Shown here in pieces: positions 2,641 through 63,555 of a DNA stretch of 64,000 bases (position 1 is the stretch's first letter; every line of letters begins with the position of its first letter). The translations under genes were made by a program, and so were the position numbers. The stretch is from the NCBI RefSeq assembly GCF_000337335.1, contig NZ_AOJN01000015.1, positions 1 to 64,000 on the forward strand, read 5' to 3'. Under the pieces are notes generated by a model. That model worked only from the letters and a program-made list of their open reading frames with translations, searched no databases and was not told the origin of the DNA. Source of the DNA: Halorubrum distributum JCM 10118. GTDB taxonomy: Archaea; Halobacteriota; Halobacteria; Halobacteriales; Haloferacaceae.

Positions 2641-2806
2641 GCCTTCTCGCTCCGTCCGGTTTCGCTTCGTCGCACGTTTTTCGAGTGGGAGTGGTTCGTC
2701 CCTCGGCGAGCGCGTGAACCCGACGAGCGATCGATTGCGAAAGTGAGTATCACAGATCGGTAGCAGCGATTCGGTATTGAAGTAGTCGCCAGCTGCGCCG
2801 ACGATC

Positions 2807-3116
2807 GTTTATAACGGAGAGTGCGGTCGGCGCGTGCCTGCGAGCGGCCGCCATCGGCGGCCGCGAGGAGCACGCGCGAGGGAGTCAGCCGGCCGGAGCG
2901 AGGCGGAGGCCGGCTGACGAGGCTGGGGAGGTGTGAGGTACGGATGCTGTGCGGTGCGGGGAGAACTCAAAGGGGCAGCCGTCGAGGGCGGGGTAGGCGA
3001 CGTAAGCACCGGAATGAGGGAGCGAAGCGACCGAGTGAGGAGCGCAGCGAGCGTACCCCTCCCTCGACGGCTGGGGCTTTGGAGGCACTCGCCGCAGCAG
3101 CGTCAGTCATTTATAA
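2807..3116 (+). repeat. Structured intergenic element, copy 1
   Basis: This is the first of five related elements. GTTTATAA at 2807-2814 precedes stem P1 (GCGTGC 2832-2837 with GCACGC 2870-2875, enclosing GCGGCCGCC 2844-2852 with GGCGGCCGC 2856-2864). P2 is an 11-bp perfect hairpin (2884-2894 with 2908-2918). The long stem P3 pairs AAAG 2969-2972 with CTTT 3077-3080 and CAGCCGTCGAGGG 2976-2988 with 3061-3073, leaving a GGG/GGG internal loop (2973-2975, 3074-3076). It extends through GGGGTA/TACCCC. A second TTTATAA (3110-3116) closes it. It sits between the convergent 3' ends of glnA and nrdJ. Open frames across it have no protein features. Nothing else is seen in 2641-2806 or 3117-3204 apart from a further TTTATAA-like box near 3144. 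Confidence 0.85.
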
Positions 3117-3204
3117 ATAGTCGACAGCAACACCTCAATTCTCTTTATAAACTGCCTCACTCACGACGTACTACACCTACTCCCGGTATCGATCGCGTTC
3201 GTCC

Positions 3205-27086: not shown

Positions 27087-27507
27087 GTTTATAAATAGTG
27101 CCGCGGTGCGGTGGCGTCGCCGGCGGCTACGCCGCCGGCTGCCAGAGGCGCGTCGCGCCTCCCTGCGTGCCTGCGAGCGGCCGGAGCGAAGCGGAGGCCG
27201 CGAGACAGCACGCGCGAGGGACGCGGTGAGCGAGGGCGACCGGAGGGAGCCCGAGCGAACCGCGAGGCTGGGGAGGCGTGAGGTGCTGTGCGGTGCGGGG
27301 CGGGACTCAAAGGGGCAGCCGTGGGGCGGGCGCAGGCGACGCAAGCACTGGAGGGAGCGAACGCAGTGAGCGACCGAAGCGCGCAGCGAGCGTGCGCCCG
27401 CCCCACGGCTGGGGCTTTGGAAGAGTTCTCCGCGGTGGCGACGACGTACAGCCGAGCAGCCGGAACTTCGACGGTATCGCTCGCATCACAGCCGGAATGG
27501 TTTATAA
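27087..27507 (+). repeat. Structured intergenic element, copy 2 (with two inserted hairpins)
   Basis: GTTTATAA (27087-27094) precedes the element. Two extra perfect hairpins, 27119-27127 with 27131-27139 and 27145-27151 with 27155-27161, are inserted before P1. P1 is GCGTGC 27165-27170 with GCACGC 27208-27213, enclosing GCGGCC 27177-27182 with GGCCGC 27196-27201. P2 is CGCGGT 27222-27227 with ACCGCG 27259-27264. P3 is a 19-bp perfect stem, 27316-27334 with 27393-27411, flanked by the GGG/GGG loop (27313-27315, 27412-27414) and AAAG/CTTT (27309-27312, 27415-27418). A degenerate downstream unit ends at TTTATAA 27501-27507. It occupies the divergent gap between aIF2 gamma and the DUF5810 gene. 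The remaining bases (26941-27086, 27508-27574) hold only promoter-like A/T boxes. Confidence 0.85.
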
Positions 27508-34399: not shown

Positions 34400-34650
34400 G
34401 CGTGCCTGCGAACGGCCGGAGCGAAGCGGAGGCCGTGAGGAGCACGCGCGAGGGACGCCGCGAGCGACCAGAGGGAGCGAGCGGCGAGGCTGGGGAGGCG
34501 TGAGGTGCTGTGCGGTCGCTGTCGGGCGGGACTCAAAGGGGCAGCCGCGAGGGCGAAGGCGCGGGAAGCAAGGACCGCAAGGAGCGAGTGAAACGAGCGA
34601 CTGAGGACCGCAGCGACCGCACCGAGTCCTCGCGGCTGGGGCTTTGGAGG
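34400..34650 (+). repeat. Structured intergenic element, copy 3
   Basis: An A/T box (ATTTGTAT, 34373-34380) lies 20-27 nt before P1: GCGTGC 34400-34405 with GCACGC 34442-34447, enclosing ACGGCC 34412-34417 with GGCCGT 34431-34436. That pair is a compensatory change against GCGGCC/GGCCGC in copies 2 and 4. P2 is CGCCGC 34456-34461 with GCGGCG 34481-34486. P3 is CAGCCGCGAGG 34542-34552 with CCTCGCGGCTG 34628-34638, with GGG/GGG (34539-34541, 34639-34641) and AAAG/CTTT (34535-34538, 34642-34645). No tandem unit follows. It is antisense to both flanking genes, between cofD's start and icd's end. Nothing else is seen in 34651-34775. Confidence 0.85.
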
Positions 34651-44501: not shown

Positions 44502-44870
44502 TTTATAAACCGCTAACCGTGGATCGGCGATGAACACCGCCAAATCCCCAGCCGCTCGGCTGTACGTGGTCGCCTGTGGAACCGCGGTGAACACCGCCAA
44601 AGCCCCAGTCGCGAGGCCGCCGTACGCTCGCTGCGCTCCTCGCTCAGTCGCTGATACTCCTTCGCTGCGGTGCTTGCGTCGCCTACGGCGGCCTCGCGAC
44701 TGCCCCTTTGACTCCCACCCCGACCGCACAGCACCGCACCTCAGGCCTCCCCAACCTCGCCGCTCGCTCCCTCCGGTCGCTCGCGGCGTCCCTCGCGCGT
44801 GCGACTCGCGGCCTCCGCTTCGCTCCGGCCGCTCGCCGGCACGCGCCACCGCGGATCTATTTATAAATAG
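44502..44870 (-). repeat. Structured intergenic element, copy 4, with 57-nt tandem unit
   Basis: Read on the minus strand, the 14-bp palindrome CTATTTATAAATAG (44857-44870) precedes P1: GCGTGC (complement of 44839-44844) with GCACGC (of 44797-44802), enclosing GCGGCC/GGCCGC. P2 is CGCCGC/GCGGCG (44783-44788, 44758-44763). P3 is a 19-bp perfect stem (44684-44702 with 44606-44624) starting CAGTCG and closing CGACTG. Two compensatory base changes separate it from CAGCCG/CGGCTG elsewhere. GGG/GGG and AAAG/CTTT are retained. A second copy of the 3' segment (44521-44553) lies exactly 57 nt from the first (44578-44610). TTTATAA at 44502-44508 ends it. Both flanking genes converge on it. 44455-44501 hold only A/T boxes. 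Confidence 0.87.
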
Positions 44871-63085: not shown

Positions 63086-63477
63086 GCCACCGCAGACGAT
63101 GCGGTGGCGCGTGCCTCCGAGTGGCCGCCGGAGGCGGCCGCGAGGAGCACGCGCGAGGGAGTCGCTGGCGGCCGGAGCGAAGCGAAGGCCGCCAGCGACG
63201 AGGCTGGGGAGGCGTGAGGCTGCGGTTGCGGTGCGGGGCGGGACTCAAAGGGGCAGCCGCGAGGACGAAGCACGACGACGCAAGCACCGCAAGGAGCGAG
63301 CGGAGCGAGCGACTGAGGAGCACAGCGAGTCGCGCGAGTCCTCGCGGCTGGGGCTTTGGAGGTATTCACCGCCGATCCGCTACCAGTCATTTATAAACGA
63401 GCGGCTGGGGCTTTGGAGGCGTTCGTCGTCGATCTACAGTCGGCTATTTATAAGCGAGCGGCTGGGGCTTTGGCGGT
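63086..63477 (+). repeat. Structured intergenic element, copy 5, with triplicated 57-nt unit
   Basis: An extra hairpin GCCACCGC/GCGGTGGC (63086-63093, 63101-63108) precedes P1: GCGTGC 63109-63114 with GCACGC 63147-63152, enclosing GTGGCCGCC 63121-63129 with GGCGGCCGC 63133-63141. P2 is a 13-bp perfect stem (63161-63173 with 63187-63199). P3 pairs AAAG 63247-63250 with CTTT 63354-63357, GGG/GGG loop, and CAGCCGCGAGGAC 63254-63266 with 63338-63350. The 3' segment GCGGCTGGGGCTTTGG recurs at 63344, 63401 and 63458, exactly 57 nt apart. The last two copies are preceded by TTTATAA(A/G)CGA. Remaining bases 63026-63085 hold a promoter; 63478-63555 hold nothing recognised. Confidence 0.87.
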
Positions 63478-63555
63478 GTTCTGCCGAGAGTGATCCGCGG
63501 TCTCGCCTCATTAACCGCCGACCGAGAATCGACTGGAAACCACTTCCTATCCCAC

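Follow-up and report, generated by a model that had tools for sequence, protein, structure and literature searches.

Many of the archaeal G-quadruplex sequences that have been tested fold in vitro (PMC12873603; PMC7565180), and living cells of Haloferax volcanii contain G-quadruplexes (PMC12873603). Natural evidence for G-quadruplexes comes for the most part from individual G-rich sequences. In the Spinach aptamer, which was selected in vitro, a quadruplex lies between coaxial helices (PMC11802350). Of the dispersed repeats, REP sequences are palindromes of 20-40 bp with a GTAG/CGTC tag at the foot (PMC3733652), and the MITEs/PATEs of Haloquadratum are non-coding, dispersed, and sometimes bounded by terminal inverted repeats (PMC3119063).

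The analysis described here concerns a repeat, five copies of which lie in a 64,000-nt stretch of Halorubrum DNA (hereafter the window). Each copy contains a long hairpin, P3, embedded in a larger unit composed of P1, P2, a core motif, a G/T-rich linker and P3, often with 57-bp tandem units. The work brings to light a repeat family that is widespread among haloarchaea and for which no description was found in the largely open-access literature searched or in Rfam.

Results

According to the original prediction, three G's face three G's at the base of P3 in every copy within the window, and exact searches placed all five copies where it had them. The 10-mer AAAGGGGCAG occurs five times in the 64,000 nt, and each hairpin is closed by CTGGGGCTTT; with one mismatch allowed, 0.84 matches to the first 10-mer would be expected by chance per window. 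In the focal copy (copy 1, forward strand), the 5' base of P3, AAAG-GGG-CAG, extends from 2969 to 2978 with the opposing G's at 2973-2975, and the 3' base, CTG-GGG-CTTT, from 3071 to 3080 with the opposing G's at 3074-3076. The same basal GGG/GGG is found on the forward strand in copy 2 (27309-27418; arms 27309-27318/27409-27418), copy 3 (34535-34645; arms 34535-34544/34636-34645) and copy 5 (63247-63357; arms 63247-63256/63348-63357), and on the reverse strand in copy 4 (44599-44709; arms 44709-44700/44608-44599). The 3' motif RCTGGGGCTTTGG recurs alone in the 57-bp tandem units downstream of copy 5 (63344-63481), and thus the 3' GGG can occur without a 5' partner.

A search pattern in which both triplets were written as NNN gave 54 matches in the 3.3 Mb genome of the organism itself and none with the reversed control. 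When the six G's were counted over the genomic copies, as had been proposed, GGG/GGG was present in all 56 distinct copies read from this genome. The P3 pattern was matched in 44 of the 46 sampled genomes of the genus Halorubrum and had no match in 345 genomes from other genera, as the flanks differ there. A test independent of the G's started from the core motif and imposed no condition on either triplet, the only requirements being RAAG, CTTY and a complementary stem. It yielded 201 distinct hairpins among 277 core copies, 196 of which carry GGG/GGG. The remaining five read CCC/GGG, CTC/GGG, TGG/GGG, GGA/GGG and GGG/AGG, and one further short copy, at locus L027, reads CCC/GGG. Neither an abundance of CCC/GGG nor a free mix of bases, the patterns that would have spoken against the prediction, extends beyond these few hairpins. 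Forms such as CCC/GGG and CTC/GGG exist but are rare, which indicates that the mismatch can be lost and yet is kept. A simple inverted repeat drifting toward perfection is ruled out by the 196 of 201 triplet-free hairpins. The six G's are not, however, the only fixed part of the hairpin, as approximately 12 bases per arm are nearly invariant. A protein-coding reading was also rejected, since the length of P3 varies in non-multiples of three and no open frame is conserved across it.

Hairpins with opposing G's are not confined to Halorubrum. Those with GGG/GGG (type 1, GGACTGAAAGGGGC...GGGGCTTTC) were found in 20 genomes from 12 other genera, with unrelated stems such as CCGCCGTCTC/GAGACGGCGG in L272 and CGACGCGTTC/GAACGCGTCG in L364. 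A sister form with GG/GG (type 2, GGAYTGAAAGGGCGAG...CGAGGGCTTTC) is present in 32 of the 86 genera sampled (76 of 391 genomes), the reversed pattern giving no matches. Its bases are ordered as AAAG, two opposing G's, a C-G pair, a tandem G-A and the stem. The GG hairpin module occurs also without the upstream motif GAGGCTGGGGAGGYGTGAGG. In L351, L327 and L355, type 2 hairpins reside within another MITE-like unit having the ends GTGTTCAGAT...ATCTGAACAC.

The claim that the mismatch is retained while the bases above it co-vary survived its own refutation test, both in Halorubrum and in the 12 other genera. In the upper helix, 95.9% of the pairs are standard, versus 78% when the 3' arms were dealt out among the copies, a comparison that is descriptive since the copies are related. 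The variety of compensated pairs is the stronger point. One upper-helix position, for example, is CG in 123 copies, TA in 46 and TG in 27, another is AT in 65, CG in 61 and GC in 53, and CAG/CTG is replaced by CCG/CGG or CGG/CCG. In the lower helix, the fourth pair from the loop is AT in 149 copies and GC in 49, and the next is CG in 189 and GC in 10. Copies from one genome (G206) read CGAAG/CTTCG in place of CAAAG/CTTTG with GGG/GGG retained. Compensating base changes of the kind that mark a structured RNA are present in the helices.

Concerted evolution is seen among the copies of a genome, and in principle the six G's could be unselected, with one ancestral mismatch having been copied by recent spread and gene conversion. 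Such an explanation is very improbable: neighboring stem positions diversified meanwhile to three pair types, the same opposing G's occur on unrelated stems in twelve other genera, and corrected CCC/GGG forms arise yet stay rare. Functional conservation of the opposing G's is well supported.

The identity of the folding strand can be approached through wobble pairs. If the G-rich strand folds, G-U should be tolerated and A-C, which corresponds to G-U on the other strand, should not. In the upper helix, G-U outnumbers A-C by 47 to 12 in type 1 and by 32 to 2 in type 2 (79 to 14 in total), an asymmetry that could partly reflect C-to-T mutation bias on the G-rich strand and that in type 1 comes largely from a single position (25 of 36 in Halorubrum). 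In P2 the corresponding counts are 21 and 13. The excess of G-U over A-C thus points to the G-rich strand as the one that folds, either as RNA or as single-stranded DNA. Calculated RNA folding energies are lower than those of shuffled sequences for both strands (z-scores of -6.4 and -5.1), and thus folding energy alone does not identify the strand. Many Halorubrum copies have a TTATAA box at a fixed distance ahead of P1: in 80 of 179 copies it is no more than 45 nt away, usually 18-20 nt, against 0.013 expected per copy. Such a box would fit with the G-rich strand being transcribed.

Immediately upstream of P3 are two additional G runs. In 186 type 1 copies from Halorubrum, the sequence is GGG-N-GGG-ACT, with G in 97-100% at positions -11 to -9 and -7 to -5; any base may stand at position -8, and the bases farther upstream are variable. 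The ACT spacer and its neighboring bases are conserved. Within the window, GGGNGGG is found in four copies, as GGG-C-GGG in copies 2 (27298-27304), 3 (34524-34530) and 5 (63236-63242), all on the forward strand, and as GGG-T-GGG in copy 4 (44714-44720, reverse strand). The focal copy reads GGGGAGA instead (2958-2964, forward strand): run 1 is intact (GGG at 2958-2960, or GGGG to 2961), and run 2 has degraded to AGA (2962-2964).

In type 2 copies the upstream sequence is CCTGG-N-GG-AYT. With the hairpins typed by the loop only, both upstream runs contain at least three G's in 206 of 237 type 1 copies versus none of 44 type 2 copies, 42 of which combine GG-N-GG with GG/GG. Outside Halorubrum the corresponding values are 18 of 30 and 0 of 43, the patterns used to fetch copies from the other genera having forced two G's before ACT/AYT and allowed three. 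In seven of those 30 type 1 copies the two runs comprise 3 and 2 G's, and in some type 1 copies the spacer is longer. In copies with a damaged loop triplet, the upstream runs are not consistently damaged. Types 1 and 2 occur together in three genomes (G195, G258 and G137), where each keeps run lengths of its own, and thus genomic base composition is not responsible. Both types may go back to one origin each, in which case the match in run length may rest on few evolutionary events.

The original prediction had offered a recognized tandem G-G motif, whether for a protein, a metal or a G-rich structure. Since two neighboring G runs match the length of those in the loop, the G-rich structure is favored over the other readings. 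The main rival is a protein-recognition site, in which tandem G-G mismatches widen the groove of an RNA hairpin and the upstream runs provide extra contacts, with no quadruplex being formed. In the HIV-1 RRE, G-G and G-A pairs widen the groove in this manner. A mismatch fixed between co-varying helices would suit such a site, and the conservation of the ACT spacer and its neighbors exceeds what a quadruplex needs. It does not predict, however, that the upstream runs change length together with the loop, and we consider it rather unlikely.

The best single explanation, and one for which our confidence is evenly balanced, would be a helix-embedded G-quadruplex of three or two tiers. The GGG/GGG site may then be the readily seen half of a module of four runs at the hairpin's foot, ordered as run 1 (GGG), a single unconstrained base, run 2 (GGG), ACT, (C/G)AAAG, run 3 (GGG), the upper helix, run 4 (GGG) and CTTT(G/C). 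Runs 3 and 4, opposed between the two helices, would be joined by runs 1 and 2 docking onto them, such that a three-tiered quadruplex is sandwiched between coaxial helices; in the sister type, whose four runs have two G's each, the quadruplex would be two-tiered. The four runs that three tiers require are present in the 206 type 1 copies noted above, to which the focal copy does not belong. The connecting loops would be 1 nt, approximately 7 nt, and a hairpin of 80-90 nt that brings runs 3 and 4 together. Usual quadruplex loops extend to 7-12 nt, and the third loop is thus beyond the range of the usual predictors.

The best explanation for the carrier is a dispersed, almost entirely chromosomal, MITE-like haloarchaeal repeat on which the module rides. 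In the focal copy, the core motif GAGGCTGGGGAGGTGTGAGG lies between P2 and the linker (2919-2938, forward strand). The organism's own genome contains 121 copies of the core motif GAGGYTGGGGAGGNGTGAGG against the 54 matches to the P3 pattern, and thus some copies are without P3. The opposing G's had been proposed as the likely functional core, which goes too far for the element as a whole: its most conserved piece is the upstream GAGGCTGGGGAGGYGTGAGG, which survives in copies that do not have this stem, Halorussus-like ones among them. In the Halorussus-like copies (L279-L293), a CAGTAGCTAGCTTC...GAAGCTAGCTACTGC palindrome stands in place of P3, often followed by an inverted second core in a BIME-like arrangement. 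The 57-bp tandem units seen at 63344-63481 on the forward strand each contain the P3 3' motif GGCTGGGGCTTTGG, with TTTATAAA between units; from 0 to approximately 4 such units, carrying TTTATAAA and the 3' motif with no 5' partner, follow different copies. In some copies (L028, L030, L208, L314, L324), the interior of P3 runs in the opposite orientation with respect to the fixed base, the orientation of GGG/GGG being unchanged. Small palindromic modules, such as GCCGGCGGC...GCCGCCGGC and GTTCACGAGAGC...GCTCTCGTG, are nested in the loops of many copies (L105, L115, L117, L123, L136, L326), as if small hairpins had inserted there.

Copy 1 is enclosed by terminal inverted repeats near CGATAGCGGGAGTGGGTGTTGCAG (2728-3195), the left being CGATCGATTGCGAAAGTGAGTATCACAG at 2728-2755 on the forward strand and the right, on the reverse strand at 3171-3195, reading CTACACCTACTCCCGGTATCGATCG on the forward strand. 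Approximately 20 related units are similarly bounded, and such repeats are not seen at most copies. At the orthologous site in related species (L200-L229), the unit occurs in either orientation, in a shortened form, or not at all, a pattern of occupancy that would be as for a mobile or invertible element. Conceivably, then, P3 is a single-stranded DNA hairpin for a transposase of the Y1/IS200-IS605-like or PATE-like kind, with the mismatch being one of the features by which the mobile element is recognized. The dispersed distribution, the alternative site states, the terminal inverted repeats in a subset and the folding of the G-rich strand, which fits single-stranded DNA as well, are in accord with such a role. 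The hairpin is internal to the unit, however, rather than terminal, it lacks a GTAG-type foot, no autonomous partner was found, and terminal inverted repeats are not characteristic of IS605, all of which render this reading improbable.

A plasmid or virus origin was considered and rejected. The core motif had no match in phage records and no exact match in IMG/VR, the viral matches to short patterns were not hairpins, and four partial plasmid matches were observed. A known RNA family was likewise rejected, as no Rfam family reached its gathering score in the window or on the hairpins in 11 related loci. In one related locus, away from the element, the sense-overlapping transcript RNA sot0042 (RF02656) was matched in Rfam (L204, 53-238). 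Among the copies listed, the chromosomal strands are mixed with no obvious bias. With a crude gene caller, 44 copies lie between convergent, 64 between codirectional and 20 between divergent genes, a mild convergent excess.

Discussion

On the basis of these sequence comparisons, we infer that the haloarchaeal repeat carries a quadruplex formed by its G-rich strand, most likely as RNA and possibly as single-stranded DNA. A stable, K+-dependent fold of this type might serve as a recognition or protection site in the transcripts of the repeat. The cytoplasm of haloarchaea contains molar K+, which favors G-quadruplexes. More tentatively, and with confidence falling somewhat short of even, the module may be natural and conserved class-wide, consisting of a long RNA hairpin that holds two G runs face to face and two docked upstream runs in cells with very high internal K+, with the number of tiers evolving in step in all four runs. 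The hundreds of diverged copies provide a covariation-style test in which four separated runs match in length and the intervening helices change freely. If the proposal is correct, the module would be nature's equivalent of the quadruplexes embedded between helices in aptamers selected in the laboratory, and haloarchaea would provide a model that is easy to probe.

The dispersed repeats resemble the present one mainly in their distribution. Like REP/BIME elements, it comprises many dispersed extragenic hairpins, with inverted pairs in the Halorussus-like copies. It is much larger, however, with several hairpins and a G-rich linker, and its P3 hairpin of approximately 110 nt has a (C/G)AAAG..CTTT(G/C) foot with no GTAG or CGTC tag of the REP kind (PMC3733652). 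With the Haloquadratum MITEs/PATEs (PMC3119063) it shares a non-coding, dispersed nature and, at times, terminal inverted repeats, but it has a conserved multi-hairpin anatomy over many genera and terminal repeats in a subset only.

The archaeal G-quadruplex sequences of Haloferax volcanii (PMC12873603) and of a wider survey (PMC7565180) likewise consist of G runs from haloarchaea for which folding is predicted. Each of them is a single local sequence, whereas in the present module the fourth run would be supplied through a long hairpin whose bases co-vary, and the lengths of the runs agree from genus to genus. The likeness to Spinach-type aptamers lies in the internal-loop G's and in the proposed G tiers between coaxial helices, as at the P2/P3 junction of Spinach (PMC11802350). 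Spinach was selected in vitro, whereas the haloarchaeal module, known from its sequence, is natural and has a different order of runs.
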